This document shows, piece after piece, positions 9,065 through 24,255 of a DNA stretch of 25,056 nt. Under the pieces are notes generated by a model. The model had not been told where the DNA came from and did no database searches. It saw only the letters and a list, made by a program, of their open reading frames with translations. The position numbers and the translations under genes are program-made. The DNA is taken from positions 59,768 to 84,823 of the forward strand of contig NW_003143822.1 of the NCBI RefSeq assembly GCF_000003605.2, in the 5' to 3' direction. The stretch is from Saccoglossus kowalevskii. Taxonomy: Eukaryota > Hemichordata > Enteropneusta > Harrimaniidae. How positions within the stretch are numbered: the stretch's first letter is position 1; every line of letters begins with the position of its first letter.

Positions 9065-9675
9065 AGTGATACAGCTATAATGAACAATCTGATTGGACAA
9101 TGTGTTGCCAAAGATAGTGATACAGCTATAATGAACAATCTGATTGGACAATGTGTTGCCAAAAATAGTGATACAGCTATAATGAACAATCTGATTGGAC
9201 AATGTGTTGCCAAAAATAGTGATACAGCTATAATGAACAATCTGATTGGACAATGTGTTGCCAAAAATAGTGATACAGCTATAATGAACAATCTGATTGG
9301 ACAATGTGTTGCCAAAGATAGTGATACAGCTATAATGAACAATCTGATTGGACAATGTGTTGCCAAAAATAGTGATACAGCTATAATGAACAATCTGATT
9401 GGACAATGTGTTGCCAAAAATAGTGATACAGCTATAATGAACAATCTGATTGGACAATGTGTTGCCAAAGATAGTGATACAGCTATAATGAACAATCTGA
9501 TTGGACAATGTGTTGCCAAAGATAGTGATACAGCTATAATGAACAATCTGATTGGACAATGTGTTGCAAAGATAGTGATACAGCTATAATGAACAATCTG
9601 ATTGGACAATGTGTTGCCAAAGATAGTGATACAGCTATAATGAACAATCTGATTGGACAATGTGTTGCCAAAAAT
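9065..9675. repeat. 51-bp minisatellite, 12 copies
   Basis: Twelve head-to-tail units start at 9065, 9116, 9167, 9218, 9269, 9320, 9371, 9422, 9473, 9524, 9574 and 9625. They start agtgatacagctataatgaa and end tgttgccaaa plus gat or aat. Copies differ only by G/A at one site (order GAAAGAAGGGGA) and by one missing C in unit 10 (50 bp). Because 51 is a multiple of 3, frames on both strands stay open for 170-200 codons; the one-base deletion breaks the sense frame, so I read this as non-coding. Each unit contains an inverted CCAAT box (CTGATTGG) and ACAAT words resembling HMG/SOX sites. Confidence 0.97.
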
Positions 9676-10144
9676 ATGTTAGCTAAATAAAATCTGCCAA
9701 GATGTAGTGATGTGGCGATTGCCTAATAAACAAACCTTGGCTGGCAAAGATAACTTTTTCCCCAAACATCACTGGAAATTACTTAATATTCCAATTGATC
9801 AGAAACCACTTTTTTTATGTAAATTTCACGGCTAGCAATGATCTTCTACAATGGCGCTGGTGCATCCAGGGTTGCCATGGTGGAGTAATAGAGATGTGCA
9901 TTTTGTCTGTCTCTAAGTTGGTGTTGGACGTGCCATAGAAGGTTAACCAGTTCCTTGTACATTTTCTACTATATTCTCTACTACTTGGTCCTCAATTTAT
10001 AAAAAAGGTGTGTATATACATGTATGTTTCCCTTACCTAAGATATCTGCCAGTATTTTGTAAACTTGCTCCTCTTTTATCATTTCTATTGGAATATAAAG
10101 AACATGATGATCACAAATATTAATATTTTTTTTTCATTTTGCAG
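9676..10144. other. Non-coding, ends in a splice acceptor
   Basis: There is no ORF of interest. AATAAA occurs at 9685-9690 right after the array. The stretch ends with a strong acceptor, tattttttttttcatttt-type tract followed by gcag (10141-10144), which defines the start of the ASB-A exon. Confidence 0.6.
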
Positions 10145-10194: not shown

Positions 10195-11550
10195 ATGGCA
10201 GAAGTGGGCAATACTGAACTTATAAATCTTATAAATAGTGGGGTGTCTGCTAGTGAATTGGAATTAAAGATTTGTGAAGGTGCTGATGTTAACTGTCCTG
10301 GGAAAATGGGTCTTGCCCCACTACATCATGCCGTATATGAAGGTAACTTGGACTGCGTCAAGCTGCTGCTCTGCCACAATGCTGACGTCAATGTACAGGA
10401 TCACTGTGGATACTCACCCCTACATTTGGCAGCTAAGTATAAAAGGATTGAGATACTACAAGAACTGATACTGAAAGGTGCTGATGTTCATAGCAGAGAT
10501 GCAGTTGGATTCCCACCACTGCGTTTAGCTCTACAAGCTGGTAACCATGAGTGTGCAGCATATTTATTACGGAAAGGTGCCAATCCTAATATGTATTATA
10601 AACACTTTGGCTATGAGGTACACATGGTTAATCTGTCAAACGCTGAATGCTTAGAACTGTTATTGCAATTTGGAGCTGATCCCGATGCCCATGACTCCAG
10701 AGGATTAACAGCCTTACACATTGCCTGTCAAGATGGCAACGTTGGATTTGTACAAAGATTATTAAAATATAATGCAGACATTGATGCTAAATCAGCCAAT
10801 CCTTCAAAAGAGAATTCAACACCGTTGAGATATGCTGTGTTAGAGGATGAAAAAGAGATAACTGAACTGTTGCTATTGAGTGGGGCTGACCCAAATGAAC
10901 CTGATGGACGATCCAACACACCACTCCACCATGCAGCCACACAAGGAAATATTGAAATGGCAAAATTGTTGTTAAAATATGGATCTAATGTCTCGGCGAA
11001 AAATGAAATGATGAATGAACCGTTACATCAGGCGTGTAGGTACTCTCATGATCCGTTGATGATTGACTTGTTATTACAGCATGGAGCTGATCCAAATTCA
11101 GTAACAAGCAACAAAGAAACGCCATTACTTCTATTATTATGGAAATACGGACGTATCACTAAGTATGATGTGGAAGAAATTGACAGAGAACTCAAAATGA
11201 AAATAGGATATTTATTTAATTTTGGAGCAAAAGTAAGATTTACCAACGATCGAGTTGACCCGTTCACTTTACTTCATGCAAAGCTGAATAAATTAGTGGT
11301 ACTAACCGAGAGCATGTTATCACTAGCTGAGTTTGCTCAAGAGATTTCAGTAGAAGATGATATTGGTAATGTTTCACCTGATATGCCCTCGGAGATATTA
11401 ACACAACTGCGGTTTGTTAAAAGCAATCCTAAATCATTAAAACACATGACAAGACTATGCATCAGGAATAGTTTAGGTGAACGCTGTCAGTATAAAATAC
11501 ACAAGCTGCCATTACCTCAGCCACTAGTCAAATTTGTTCAGTATTTATAG
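10195..11550 (+). CDS. Ankyrin repeat and SOCS box protein (ASB-A), 451 aa
   Basis: Probable substrate receptor of a Cullin-5/Elongin B/C (CRL5) ubiquitin ligase; this role is family knowledge. About eight ankyrin repeats run from residue 38 to 303 (PLHHAV, PLHLAA, PLRLAL, ALHIAC, PLRYAV, PLHHAA, PLHQAC, each followed by a LLL-x-GAD-type helix and loop); the one near 138-166 is degenerate. A linker with LLWKYGR (314-320) leads to a C-terminal SOCS box (412-451). Its BC box is SLKHMTRLCIR and its Cul5 box is LPLP near 438-441. The start is ATG 10195 (A at -3, G at +4); an in-frame TAA at 10165-10167 rules out extension within this exon. The coding part has no intron. No canonical AATAAA appears until 12419-12424. 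It is a tandem paralogue of the gene at 17927. The exact ASB number cannot be assigned. Confidence 0.93.
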   Translation: MAEVGNTELINLINSGVSASELELKICEGADVNCPGKMGLAPLHHAVYEGNLDCVKLLLCHNADVNVQDHCGYSPLHLAAKYKRIEILQELILKGADVHSRDAVGFPPLRLALQAGNHECAAYLLRKGANPNMYYKHFGYEVHMVNLSNAECLELLLQFGADPDAHDSRGLTALHIACQDGNVGFVQRLLKYNADIDAKSANPSKENSTPLRYAVLEDEKEITELLLLSGADPNEPDGRSNTPLHHAATQGNIEMAKLLLKYGSNVSAKNEMMNEPLHQACRYSHDPLMIDLLLQHGADPNSVTSNKETPLLLLLWKYGRITKYDVEEIDRELKMKIGYLFNFGAKVRFTNDRVDPFTLLHAKLNKLVVLTESMLSLAEFAQEISVEDDIGNVSPDMPSEILTQLRFVKSNPKSLKHMTRLCIRNSLGERCQYKIHKLPLPQPLVKFVQYL

Positions 11551-17926: not shown

Positions 17927-19240
17927 ATGTTCGAGGCTTTAGTGATGGAGGTAGTGGAAGATATCAATGGTTGTGACGACAAAGAACGCACTGCACTACA
18001 CTTTGCAGCTATGCGAAATAACCTAATATATGTCCAGATTTTACTTAAACATGGCATAGATGCAAACCTACAAGACCGTGCAGGTAATATAGCACTGCAT
18101 TATGCTGTTACAAAAAACAATCCGGAAATGGTATCTACATTGATAGAACATGGCTCTGTCGTGGGTACTGAAAATGCCAATGGTTTTCCAGCTTTGCATT
18201 TAGCAGTAAGAGACTGTAACGTGCAATGCATCAAGATACTGTTGCAGCATGGAGCAAATCCGAATAAAAGATATTCTATGTTCAATAGAGTTTTTCATGA
18301 GATAAACTGTGTTAAAAAAGACAGCACCGAAAGCTTAGAGCTGCTACTAAAGTTTGGTGCCAAAACAGAAGTCCTTGACACTAAAAGTCTAACGCCACTG
18401 CATTGGGCATGCCAGGGGGGGAATTTTCCCTTTGCTAAAATGCTGCTAGATTATGGGGCAAAGGTTGATTATGAAAGCCCCGAGACCAGAGGACTTCGTG
18501 GTAAAATTACACCATTGCGATATGCTGTAATGAACAGTGAACCTGAACTTACAAAACTACTATTGGAGCACGGCGCAGATCCCAATAAATGTGATGCTAG
18601 AGGCAATACTGCCCTGCATGTTGCAGCTCAACAAAGCTGTAGAGAAATCGTACAGCAACTGCTAGAAAAGGGAGCTAATGTTCAAGTGAAAAACTTTGAC
18701 GGTCATCAACCACTCCACCGTGCCTGTATTTGTAGTAATGACTCAGATTTGATTCGTCTGTTGCTTCAGCATGGAGCAGATCCAAATGCTGTGAATGAGA
18801 AAATGGAAGTACCCATACATGGCTTGTTGTGGAAGTATGGTCGGGCCCCCATTGACAAGGCAGATACCAATGACGCTAATCTGAGAGAAAAGATACTTAT
18901 TCTCCTTAACCATGGGGCACACTTCAATCTCTGCAATGATCAAAATGACCCATTCAGTATCATTAACAACTTGAGAAAGTTGGAAACTTTGCCTCAGAGT
19001 CTACATCTGCTCCTAGAGGCTTCTGATTCCGTCAACTTCTACGACAGCAAAGGCTCTACGCCACGTCAAGCCATTCATTCAAGCATAAAGGACAAATTAA
19101 AAGAGATGACATCAATGCCAAGGTCGCTAAAACAAAAAACTAGAGTATGCATACGCAATGCCTTAGAAATGAGAGTTGCCACTGATGTTGAATTTCTGCC
19201 AATACCACATTCACTGAAGCAATACATTTTATACAAGTAA
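17927..19240 (+). CDS. Ankyrin repeat and SOCS box protein (ASB-B), 437 aa
   Basis: Paralogue of the gene at 10195, with the same predicted CRL5 substrate-receptor role. Ankyrin repeats cover residues about 20-290 (ALHFAA, ALHYAV, ALHLAV, PLHWAC, PLRYAV, ALHVAA, PLHRAC); the repeat near 118-146 is degenerate, as in ASB-A. The linker again contains LLWKYGR (300-306). The SOCS box is 397-437: BC box SLKQKTRVCIR, Cul5 box LPIP (424-427). The start is ATG 17927, with G at -3; an in-frame TGA at 17882-17884 limits extension. It is shorter at the N terminus than ASB-A by about 20 residues. The coding part has no intron. AATAAA at 19628-19633 gives a 3' UTR of about 400 bp. The strongest match to ASB-A is the TPLRYAV to LWKYGR span. 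Confidence 0.93.
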   Translation: MFEALVMEVVEDINGCDDKERTALHFAAMRNNLIYVQILLKHGIDANLQDRAGNIALHYAVTKNNPEMVSTLIEHGSVVGTENANGFPALHLAVRDCNVQCIKILLQHGANPNKRYSMFNRVFHEINCVKKDSTESLELLLKFGAKTEVLDTKSLTPLHWACQGGNFPFAKMLLDYGAKVDYESPETRGLRGKITPLRYAVMNSEPELTKLLLEHGADPNKCDARGNTALHVAAQQSCREIVQQLLEKGANVQVKNFDGHQPLHRACICSNDSDLIRLLLQHGADPNAVNEKMEVPIHGLLWKYGRAPIDKADTNDANLREKILILLNHGAHFNLCNDQNDPFSIINNLRKLETLPQSLHLLLEASDSVNFYDSKGSTPRQAIHSSIKDKLKEMTSMPRSLKQKTRVCIRNALEMRVATDVEFLPIPHSLKQYILYK

Positions 19241-19655
19241 CGGAGAACTTGTATTAACCCCACAATATTTTTTCTTTTTGATTTTGTATCGCACTGAGCC
19301 ACGAATGAGAATTGATGCTACTAACATTAACCTATGAGAAAATATCATGGGATTATACATTTATCACATGCATATTTTCTGTCCGGGAAATTGGAACTGT
19401 TGCTGAAATACCGATTACAAATACCGGTATATCATTTCACACACGTCTTGATGCCATGTTCCTCCATGATTTTTGCTCCAATTCACTAGATTTTTTTTTA
19501 AATTTCAATTTTTTGGATGCACTGAATAGAAATTTCAATACACACAAGCTTGCCAAAATTCAGTCATTCTAAACAATCAGTAAATTGGTGCAAAAAATGC
19601 CATGCAGCATGTGAGGCATTTGCATGAAATAAATAGAACACAAACAAAATCAAAA
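19241..19655 (+). other. 3' UTR of ASB-B
   Basis: AATAAA at 19628-19633 is the first canonical polyadenylation signal downstream of the stop, followed by a T/G-containing stretch (tgctttgtattc). TACCGGTA copy 4 lies inside at 19422-19429. Confidence 0.6.
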
Positions 19656-20269
19656 TAGCATGCTTTGTATTCAGAATGTATTTTCAGCAATTGTTACATT
19701 TTCAACACTCAGTCGTCTCACTTTTTGAACTTTTGAAACATACATTCAAAAAGTATATAACCCCCCCACAATGTATTCTCCAATGTTAACATCAGAAGTG
19801 AGTGATTACCACCAGTTTGTTTCAATTTGAGCCATAAAATAATATAATCTTCATGCAATCTTGAACTGGAAACTGACAATCCCACTTTCAGTCAATTTTC
19901 CTCTCAAAATTTGGTATTGTGTTTCAGCTAATTTCTATGGATACTATAATTTGCTTGCAAAAGTAGTTCTCTTTTCAAAACAAGTCTTTGGTCTAAAGCT
20001 TAGGAAGAACTCTTAGAAGTACTGTAGGCGTATTAAAATTTAATTTAAAATTTAGCCTTTCAAACAAGAAGCTTGGAAACTAATATTTACATGTATCTGC
20101 TATTGGAGATGTACAATGTGAAATTTGATTAAATTTTATAATACTTAAAAATAAATTTGATTGTACATCTGTGATTTGCAGTCTAATTTATTCCAGAGCA
20201 AATTGCATATACTAGTAATTCATGAAGGTATGTCTGAGAAATGATTAAGAACACATGAAAAATTATAAT

Positions 20270-20275
20270 TTTATT
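20270..20275 (-). terminator. Polyadenylation signal of the minus-strand microprotein gene
   Basis: TTTATT on the plus strand is AATAAA on the minus strand, about 330 bp downstream of the microprotein stop. A variant ATTAAA (20585-20590) lies only 16 bases after the stop and is an alternative. Confidence 0.45.
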
Positions 20276-20605
20276 TAGTTAATTCTATAATATACCCCAA
20301 ATTACAAACAATGTTTTTACATGCCCTGTATATGGGACCCACTTGAACTTGCTCCAACCATCATCAATAAGAAGTTTTGTATTAGTGGAGCAGACTCGAA
20401 GAAATGTTCTTAAGTAACTCAATAAATCAGTCCACATTTCCGTGTTTTATAAACACATACATCATTGTCAATATCTATAATTCATTGACATATTTATATG
20501 GCTGCATTACACTGTTTTCGTGATATATTTGAACTTATTTTTGTTTGTAAAAATGAACTGTAATGTTATGGGTTTAAACAAATATTTAATTCCATTATGG
20601 TTCAA

Positions 20606-20887
20606 TTACGACTTCTTCGGAACTCGTTCGTGAACTTGTTTTACTAATTCTTTAGTTGTTTCCTCAACATCTGGTAGAACATAGGTTTGTTGAACATACA
20701 CTCCAGCAATAAGTCCAACTAATAGTCCAGCAGCAAATTTTCTGGGCAGAACTGCTCCTGCTATGACTCCCATTAAGAAGTCTGGAGTGGCTGCCCTCTC
20801 AGCAATAATCTGTAATGGTATCATAGTAATATTGAGTATTTTCTTGATGTGGGATGGGGTCATAGTCTTACTTAGAGGGTGGGCCAT
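20606..20887 (-). CDS. SLC35A4-microprotein-like mitochondrial membrane protein, 93 aa
   Basis: The C-terminal 55 residues look like the human SLC35A4 upstream-ORF microprotein and, more distantly, STMP1. They contain FLMGVIAG (37-44), a Gly-rich hydrophobic helix AAGLLVGLIAGVYVQQTY (52-69) with GxxxGxxxG spacing (54, 58, 62), then LPDVEETTKELV and a basic tail ending KKS. As I recall, the human protein has FLKG-x-LAG, GIYAAQAY and VPNVEKT at the same places, and is reported in the inner mitochondrial membrane. I chose ATG 20885-20887 because its context (AACCATGG) is ideal. An earlier in-frame ATG (20960-20962, weak context) would give 118 aa. A strong acceptor (AATTGTCCCACAG, exon from 20981) lies upstream with the frame open through it, so coding could begin in an earlier exon. 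The N-terminal 30 residues are not conserved by eye. Confidence 0.72.
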   Translation of the reverse strand: MAHPLSKTMTPSHIKKILNITMIPLQIIAERAATPDFLMGVIAGAVLPRKFAAGLLVGLIAGVYVQQTYVLPDVEETTKELVKQVHERVPKKS

Positions 20888-20981
20888 GGTTTTCTGGTGG
20901 ATAGTGTGCAAGCCATACCCAGGTGTGAATAGCCATGTTGGAAGTGATTTCTTGCATAACATATGAACAATATTAGCAAAG

Positions 20982-22017
20982 CTGTGGGACAATTAAAAAA
21001 AGTAGGGATTAAAGTATAAATATTCTGTGATACAACATGATGGATATATTCAGAGTGATCCAGCAGCGACTCAATAATGAAAGCTAAAAATCATGTTCTA
21101 GTGAATTCCCGGTTTTCAAAAAAACAAATAACATGTATTAGAAAATTTAACCATTGGGAATGTAGATTAAAAAAACAAATGGATTAATGAAAACAAACTA
21201 ACAATACACAATCCATTCTTTACATGGAAAAGTGAGGATGAAAGTCCTATAACAATGCAATAATTTATCTAAATATTTTGCTTAGCAAATACTGGCTACA
21301 ATTTAGGTGAGAACAATTCTGACAAAAAATGGACAAGAACAATGAAGTCATCATAATTATATAAAAAAAAATAATATTAATGTTCCTCAGATAATACTAC
21401 GGTACATGTACTGTATTAATCTCAATGTCCCTTATGAAATAATAAACAGGAATTGTATAAAAGTTCCTACATAATAGTACAGTGATATATATATATATAA
21501 GAAAAATCTGGCTAGCCAGATTTAGCAGGGAAAAACAGACTGTTATTGTCACTTTTGTAATCTATACTACATAATGTAAAAATAATCATCAGTATACTAC
21601 ATTTGTGTAATTGACATTTCTTGGAGGGCATATTACTATTATCTTGTTTAGCAGGATTATTAGCAGTATAAATGTCTTTATTCTGTCCAACAATTGTTTT
21701 ATTTTAGCCAAATTGAAAATTGCACTTCATAGTTGCACCAAAATTGAGCTTGGTGGTTCATAATGATAACAATCATCCTCTAAGTCTTGTCGATAACGTT
21801 TTGGTTCAAATTCATGTAGCTATCGCTGAGAAAAACGTAGTCGTTGAAAAAGCTAATTAGCATAACGGTCTTTTGACCGTTGTCGCCATTTTTAATTATC
21901 TTTGACTTTTCCGTTTTCTCACGCCAGAGTGAATACCATAACACCATAAAGAATTGTTCCCGGGAGTAATAAGAATGAATCCATGTCCTCCATCATAATT
22001 TACAATGTTTTGTGTCA
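20982..22017 (-). other. Probable 5' intron and promoter area of the microprotein gene
   Basis: AT-rich DNA from 20982 to about 21770 has no gene signal. From about 21780 to 21910 CpG rises. The minus strand carries AAAATGGCGACAACGG (about 21880-21895), which resembles a YY1-type initiator element; its ATG opens only ten codons. A 7-bp hairpin AACGGTC-TTTT-GACCGTT sits at 21864-21881. This would suit a start site for the minus-strand gene, with splicing to the acceptor at 20982. Inference only. Confidence 0.3.
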
Positions 22018-22089
22018 TTTTGGTCCTCACTGGTCAATGTGTTTTGGTCCTCACTGGTCAATGTGTTTTGGTCCTCACTGGTCAATGTG
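22018..22089. repeat. 24-bp tandem repeat, 3 copies
   Basis: Three identical head-to-tail units (22018-22041, 22042-22065, 22066-22089) begin ttttggtcctcactggtcaa and end tgtg. Perfect identity indicates recent expansion. Confidence 0.95.
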
Positions 22090-22900
22090 TTTTTCGGATT
22101 GGGTCGCAATTACCATAGCTATCATTGAGGTAAATAGTCTCTCACACCTTGGTTATTAAAAGGACTGTGGTTAGTACAGGTATCACTGATTTTTCGTCGC
22201 CGGGGTGATTAACGTCCCAAATTTTGGTTCCCCAGACGCCTCTAAAATTTAACCTATACTTATTTTGGTCTCAATGTTTTTTCACTCAAAAGGCAAAGGA
22301 TCGGCTATTTCATTTGTTTCCAATTCGCTGTATGCTTAGAAATATGGCAACGTTGTAGTTTGGTAAATATATAACATGTTCTGTTCCAATAAAGAATTTT
22401 GATATGCATAACAATTCTTAAGTTACTGAAACATCTCCTGTACTCATGGACCTTCTGTTCAATGCATTATTGAATGTTCAAGACACTGTACATAAAAACA
22501 CACCCTCAAACTTGACAACATTCACTTTCAGACCACTAAGCAAATAGATGGAAATACCAGTTGCATTAATCATGAAGATTGATGATTCGATTGCTGGCCG
22601 GGATAGCTGTATTTAGTGTTCATTTCCAGGCAATGTAAAATCATATCGCTGTTACTCCAAGTCAGACCTGGTACCCATGCTGAAGTATAGATTTTCAAAA
22701 AAGCTTCTAAACATGTACTTATTTTTGTGAAATTGTGAAATTATACCCCTTTTAAAGAGCAGAAACTCAATATAAATACCCTATATACATACGGCACTAA
22801 AAATCACACTGTTTCCAAGTATCATTAATTCATGACACATTATTCCATTAATGAACGAAATTCATAATACAATCTTATGCTTACAAATAATTCCAGTACT
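22090..22900. other. Non-coding stretch
   Basis: The CpG-containing part at 22180-22330 may belong to the same promoter-like area. The remainder is AT-rich with no supportable gene. Confidence 0.5.
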
Positions 22901-23840: not shown

Positions 23841-24255
23841 TTACTGCAACAAAGCCCTAATCCCCATGAAAGCCAGCCGATACGAAACCCACTTACCGCA
23901 AAAGCCAATTATCGCGAAGCTACTAGTTGAATCTAAAAAAGATGTCAACCTAATATTCAGGATGCTATTGAATAACTTGCCAAGACAGCTAGAGATGGCA
24001 ATTTCCCTGCAGTTGACTGTGTTATTTTTGGACCCAATTTTTGGATTACATGGTACCAACAGACCAAGAATGTGGATAGTTATTTGACCTATAAACAATA
24101 TTAAAGAGTTTATGTATTGCATATAATAAGTGATGTTCACCGTATTTTAACAATTTATTGCAAATTCTATCTTCTGCCGAAGCCTTGTTACTTTTAGGAA
24201 GTCTAATGGCTTTTGTAATTTCACTTTTTAAGATTGGTCTGTCTAAATGAAGTTG
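23841..24255 (-). pseudogene. Relict non-LTR retrotransposon reverse transcriptase fragment
   Basis: On the minus strand one frame (24255 to 24046) reads EITKAIR...NKASAEDRIC, then KLLKYGEHHLLYAIHKLFN and ends at a TAA (24046-24048). A one-base shift then continues as GLLVPCNPKIGSKN...REIAISSCLGKLFNSIL followed by NIRLTSFL. The order matches the start of the reverse transcriptase domain of non-LTR elements: the 'K..G.DGI...LL' block, then 'PI.KKGS...YR.I.LLS...K....IL..RL'. The catalytic YxDD region is absent. Similarity is lost near 23935, and DNA from there to 23790 is of another, CpG-rich, unidentified origin. Frameshift, stop and truncation mark it as dead. The element may extend up to about 24400, but I cannot align that part. 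Confidence 0.8.

Follow-up and report, generated by a model that had tools for sequence, protein, structure and literature searches.

A candidate stand-alone gene for a STREMI/STMP1 (DUF4535) superfamily microprotein in the enteropneust Saccoglossus kowalevskii

A minus-strand exon and its surroundings

The window analyzed here is a 25,056-nucleotide stretch of the Saccoglossus kowalevskii assembly (572,110,611 bp, 4830 contigs), located on contig C3486 (103,998 bp). Its central feature is a reading frame for a 93 amino acid protein (Table 1), within what the first-pass annotation had proposed as a minus-strand coding exon at 20606-20981. This frame is present, and a good splice acceptor (actttttttaattgtcccacag) precedes 20981, where the exon can begin. 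The ATG at 20887 lies in a strong start context (ccagaaaaccATGGCC), and that of the longer in-frame reading lies in a weak one (tattgttcatATGTTA). The GC content is 41.7% in the frame vs. 30.5 and 32.6% in its flanks. The length of the frame alone is no proof of a gene, since an open frame of at least 128 codons was present in 29 of 60 order-1 random windows with the same dinucleotide make-up.

Table 1. Coordinates of the features predicted at the microprotein locus.
Feature	Position	Strand	Basis	Remarks
Exon, coding part	20606..20981	minus	sequence only	opens at acceptor ttttttaattgtcccacag/CTTTGC
CDS of 93-aa microprotein	20606..20887	minus		ATG at 20887, stop 20606-20608
Longer in-frame reading, 118 aa	20606..20962	minus		from weaker ATG at 20962
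Predicted N-terminal helix, residues 11-32	20792..20857	minus	model	amphipathicity not significant
Segment 1 GxxxG, GVIAG, residues 40-44	20756..20770	minus		putative counterpart of STREMI G50xxxG54
Segment 2 GxxxGxxxG, GLLVGLIAG, residues 54-62	20702..20728	minus		putative match to STREMI G67/G71/G75 and the STMP1 motif
Predicted C-terminal helix, residues 72-88	20624..20674	minus	model	starts PDVEET
AATAAA, likely poly(A) signal	20270..20275	minus	sequence	
Second AATAAA	20187-20192	minus	sequence	
AT-rich gap between convergent genes	19241..20605			1,365 bp, without transporter frame

Upstream of the exon, the site at 23897 (gcg/GTAAGT) is what we take to be the best minus-strand donor, scored with a hand-entered weight matrix, and a AAAATGGCGAC element near 21891 on the same strand may presumably mark a start site. 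The same upstream region contains 3.2 perfect copies of a 24-bp unit (22018-22093), which provides three donor-like cca/GTGAGG sites on the minus strand, one in each unit.

Downstream of the stop codon, the first-pass annotation had described AT-rich DNA with polyadenylation signals and no transporter frame before a convergent ankyrin/SOCS-box gene. Both points were confirmed: the gap up to that gene, which ends at 19240, has a GC content of 30.5% and carries AATAAA at 20275 and 20192, and no ATG-started minus-strand frame of at least 60 amino acids is listed in 19241-20605. The longest open stretch on this strand of the gap is 57 codons, and the longest from an ATG is 50.

Two tandem ankyrin-repeat and SOCS-box (ASB-like) genes occupy the plus strand of the window (10198-11550 and 17927-19240), each a single open frame with Ank and SOCS_box matches above the Pfam cut-offs, and the second of these is convergent with the putative microprotein gene. 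Upstream of the first ASB-like gene, at 9065-9676, a 51-bp unit is repeated 12 times (98% matches). Because 51 is a multiple of 3, two frames on the minus strand and one on the plus strand stay open across this array; its long ORFs are therefore probably spurious. On the same contig, upstream of the microprotein gene, a rhodopsin-type 7-TM receptor is encoded in a single open frame (L002:5096-6103, minus strand). Searches across the window with Rfam at gathering scores and with ARAGORN returned nothing.

Likeness to STREMI and STMP1 and predicted architecture

Human STREMI, also referred to as SLC35A4-MP, alt-SLC35A4 or the SLC35A4 uORF protein, is described in the excerpted text of PMC13303939 (2026) as an inner-membrane protein with two membrane segments and both ends in the intermembrane space, which forms oligomers with MIC10, contributes to maintaining the largest MICOS assemblies and gives cristae their shape. 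According to the same excerpts, its location, MIC10 binding and cristae phenotype were shown in human cells and mouse, residues 11-28 of the human protein are required for mitochondrial localization, and the protein is akin to STMP1, which has been reported from metazoans and land plants alike. The excerpts limit STREMI homologues to vertebrates, a range that rests on BLASTP of nr at 1e-5 together with extra lamprey and hagfish searches. Earlier, Andreev et al. (2015; PMC4383229, in part) had noted DUF4535 in the SLC35A4 uORF, conserved across vertebrates, and a survey of conserved uORFs (PMC7530721, in part) included this uORF among those tested. Among the matches listed for SLC35A4, STREMI, STMP1 and DUF4535, titles and abstracts contained no report of an invertebrate STREMI.

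In the profile search proposed by the first-pass annotation, DUF4535 (PF15054) matches residues 55-87 of the 93 amino acid protein with E = 7.5e-6, and the score of 26.0 bits (25.4 in the genome search) lies slightly under the Pfam gathering cut-off of 28.3. For pairwise comparison, the human STREMI and STMP1 letters were entered by hand rather than retrieved; the hand-entered STREMI agrees with six published positions (L52, G54, A69, G71, C73 and G75) and with the published length of 103 residues (PMC13303939, excerpts). The local alignment score was 85 against STREMI and 61 against STMP1, and 0 of 2000 shuffles reached either value. The STREMI alignment spans both membrane segments. Segment 2 with the C-terminus barely discriminates on its own (68 for STREMI vs. 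61 for STMP1); segment 1 contributes 17 more, and when the N-terminal half was shuffled with segment 2 kept, 14 of 5000 shuffles reached the full score of 85. When the N-terminal halves alone were compared, the score was 30, a value reached by 28 of 2000 shuffles, and no local alignment extends into the N-terminus of STREMI. In the PDB, six sequences matched at E ≤ 10, the best being a virus capsid VP1 (E = 0.85), and this was taken as chance.

Three GxxxG motifs are common to the microprotein (one at residues 40-44 and two within 54-62) and STREMI (50-54 and 67-75), in which G54, G71 and G75 are taken from the paper and G50 and G67 from the hand-entered sequence. The hand-entered STMP1 has two such motifs, corresponding only to the segment 2 set. 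In addition, the PDVEET of the microprotein resembles PNVEKT of STREMI and not PNLAKK of STMP1, the letters of both human proteins being hand-entered. Like STREMI, the microprotein is about 100 residues long, has GxxxG in the first predicted membrane segment and GxxxGxxxG followed by PxVExT in and after the second, and carries basic residues in the loop between the segments (R-K here, K and R in human). It resembles lamprey and hagfish STREMI (PMC13303939, excerpts) in being a stand-alone gene, here a putative one. It differs from STREMI in belonging to a hemichordate, in having no SLC35A gene behind it, in a loop three residues shorter, and in an unalignable and more hydrophobic N-terminus.

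With the hand-entered STMP1 (Mitolamban; DUF4535, PF15054), the microprotein shares a glycine-zipper helix of the form G-x3-G-x3-G-x-Y-x2-Q-x-Y-x2-P and a charged C-terminus. STMP1, however, has 47 residues rather than 93, without a counterpart of segment 1 and without PxVExT. A hairpin of two glycine-rich inner-membrane segments is also the topology given for MIC10 (PF04418) in the excerpts of PMC13303939; MIC10 differs by its GxGxG-type motif and by its own locus on contig C2733, and homology with the microprotein is not claimed.

A single-sequence AlphaFold model of the protein, which is of low confidence (mean pLDDT 65.3, pTM 0.26), places helices at residues 11-32, 35-46, 49-70 and 72-88. 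The modelled helices fit the plan of STREMI, with flanking helices around two predicted membrane segments of uneven length. The 15-residue hydropathy exceeds 1.0 nearly continuously for windows starting at residues 32-57, and because of this nearly unbroken profile the division between segments 1 and 2 relies on the P-R-K loop and on the weak model. Residues 14-31 add a third hydrophobic stretch, weaker than the others (15-residue means of 1.10-1.29), which is absent from the hand-entered STREMI. Neither flanking helix is clearly amphipathic: the amphipathicity of the predicted C-terminal helix was equalled by 448 of 20000 shuffles (26 of 20000 for the hand-entered human STREMI), and that of the N-terminal helix was equalled or exceeded by 2154 of 20000 (1453 of 20000 for the hand-entered STREMI).

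Genome-wide searches

All genome searches scored only the best candidates and ignored introns, so that a miss is weak evidence. The microprotein itself matched only its own locus at E ≤ 0.001. With the hand-entered human STREMI as query, the microprotein locus was the only match at E ≤ 10, one candidate having reached scoring; the match spans query residues 45-96, including both segments, at 37% identity and E = 0.017. The hand-entered human STMP1 returned nothing at E ≤ 10, the microprotein locus included, and a separate STMP1 was not detected in the assembly with either the Pfam DUF4535 model or this query; as far as this weak test goes, the locus may be the sole DUF4535 gene. A second DUF4535 match, on C2727 (L005:1459-1599, minus strand; TGIYICQQYNIPS), has an STMP1-like core and an E of 6 genome-wide, and was dismissed as chance because it shares its DNA, in another reading frame, with the end of a Neurexophilin-like open frame. 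For MIC10 (PF04418), two exon matches above the family cut-off were found on C2733, and the locus carries a GTGIGLGMG segment.

We also followed the first-pass suggestion that SLC35A4 be sought elsewhere. A search of the whole assembly with the SLC35A family profile (PF04142) yielded at least 11 matches on five contigs (C4595, C1841, C3354, C2720 and C1143), of which none lies on the contig of the microprotein; since the SLC35A matches found sit on five other contigs, the SLC35A4 uORF arrangement is not seen at this locus. The longest match runs from profile position 104 to 315 (of 315) and contains three internal stops, so no intronless full-length copy is seen. When the hand-entered human SLC35A4 was compared by tblastn with the 11 loci, the best matches were those on C1143 (L016) and C2720 (L013), with E about 1e-9 as computed within this 11-locus database; no orthology is claimed.

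The assembly also includes a mitochondrial contig of 17,037 bp (L021, L022), for which codons were compared with the residues of mammalian COX1, cytochrome b and ND5 from the PDB (ND5 over its first 412 aligned residues only). The 36 aligned ATA codons stood opposite Ile in 17 cases, Val in 6, Leu in 4, Met in 3 and other residues in 6, whereas 28 of 31 ATG codons stood opposite Met; among 13 AAA codons, 9 faced Lys and 1 Asn. From these counts we read ATA as Ile and AAA as Lys. The two aligned AGA codons faced Ser and Pro, so AGA as Ser rests on one conserved site. The frames of this contig show an inverted cox1, nad2 ahead of nad1 and cob after nad5. PDB searches identified cox1, cob and nad5, and the other genes were assigned by eye. 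In the excerpts of Perseke et al. (2011; PMC3121625), S. kowalevskii mitochondria read AUA as Ile, AAA as Lys and AGA as Ser, lack AGG, and have COX1 inverted and ND1 or ND2 transposed, while AUA is Met in vertebrates, tunicates and lancelets, AAA is Asn in echinoderms and Balanoglossus has no AAA. Excerpts of Bourlat et al. (2009; PMC2697986) likewise give ATA as Ile as a mark of echinoderms and hemichordates and AAA as Lys in Saccoglossus, and place nd5 next to cob in both hemichordates, as well as in Xenoturbella and birds. A later paper (PMC8961565) states to the contrary that hemichordate mitochondria have AAA reassigned to Asn; on this point we followed the two mitochondrial-genome papers (PMC3121625 and PMC2697986, as excerpted). 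The code and the inverted cox1 of the contig, as judged from its sequence, fit the Saccoglossus pattern. The gene order had also raised a lancelet origin, against which the reading of ATA as Ile decides; a GFP-family search returned no match here or in any control genome and carries no weight on this point.

Alternative readings and implications for the origin of STREMI

Taken at the level of sequence, the locus offers the frame with its acceptor, a glycine zipper in each of the two segments, a matching C-terminus and only one detectable copy, on a contig without SLC35A match. We consider it likely that this exon represents a stand-alone enteropneust gene encoding a microprotein of the mitochondrial inner membrane, one that belongs to the STREMI/STMP1 (DUF4535) superfamily and has the architecture of STREMI. 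The name given in the first-pass annotation, an SLC35A4-type microprotein, is supported by the STREMI-type motifs and by the higher score against STREMI, and the protein may be a strict orthologue of STREMI or, less probably, an STMP1-lineage protein with an extra membrane segment.

That the frame is a chance opening and not a gene, with common membrane-segment residues producing the match, would agree with the abundance of equally long frames in the random windows; it is very improbable given that the locus is the only genome match of the human STREMI query, that the motifs are in register, that the acceptor, the strong start context and the poly(A) signal stand in order, and that GC content is higher than in the flanks. 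A different reading takes the protein to be a hemichordate STMP1, that is, a complex III assembly microprotein, lengthened N-terminally by hydrophobic helices, with a segment 1 that came to resemble that of STREMI by convergence. DUF4535 covers only the C-terminal part of the protein, segment 2 and the C-terminus fit STMP1 almost as well as STREMI, the N-terminal third is unlike STREMI, and no separate STMP1 was detected in the weak test available. Against it stand segment 1 and its GxxxG, which are in register with STREMI beyond what most shuffles achieve, the P-x-V-E-x-T that STMP1 lacks, the two-fold difference in length with further hydrophobic segments ahead of the DUF4535 part, and the recovery of the locus by the STREMI query and not by the STMP1 query, so that we regard an extended STMP1 as unlikely.

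The sole convincing DUF4535-type locus detected in the assembly could also descend from an undivided STREMI/STMP1 ancestor, and serve both MICOS and complex III in hemichordates. We find this improbable: the reported presence of STMP1 across land plants and metazoans (PMC13303939, excerpts) means that a separate hemichordate STMP1 is expected, and introns may divide such a gene or assembly gaps hide it (9,115 N among 9,991 positions in L003).

If the stand-alone gene with STREMI architecture is accepted, it would be transcribed as its own mRNA, without a transporter. Its product would form a membrane hairpin of two uneven helices, its N- and C-termini lying in the intermembrane space and its R-K loop facing the matrix. 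The GxxxG motifs would pack the microprotein with itself and with MIC10, and at crista junctions it would support MICOS in the way published for human STREMI. In jawed vertebrates, the uORF arrangement would then have arisen later, when SLC35A4 was captured behind a gene that was already old and independent.

In the excerpts of PMC13303939, lamprey and hagfish STREMI are stand-alone and away from any SLC35 gene, the bicistronic STREMI-SLC35A4 transcript is dated to jawed vertebrates through retroposition of SLC35A4, and no associated STREMI ORF was found in lancelets. The first-pass annotation had left two options, a uORF arrangement derived in vertebrates or a transporter lost or moved in this lineage, and the former fits best because of this published distribution of the bicistronic transcript and the stand-alone gene. 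This locus probably extends the history of the two-segment protein as a stand-alone gene to before the chordates, which agrees with and deepens the published model of a later fusion, and conflicts with the vertebrate-only range of STREMI stated in the same excerpts. Extending this, we lean slightly toward a history in which STREMI is no vertebrate invention. The two-segment MICOS microprotein would already have had a gene of its own in the ancestor of deuterostomes, perhaps of bilaterians, and would have escaped BLASTP through its small size and divergence; the transporter would have landed behind it in jawed vertebrates, giving the stress-regulated STREMI-SLC35A4 transcript.

At stake is the origin of functional uORF proteins, which may emerge afresh from leader sequence or be old genes that were captured in front of another. 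A STREMI-like stand-alone gene outside chordates, if true, would be an outgroup favoring an old gene captured later, and would contradict the published vertebrate-only range of STREMI. It would also offer an animal in which the role of the protein may be tested without disturbing the translation of SLC35A4.
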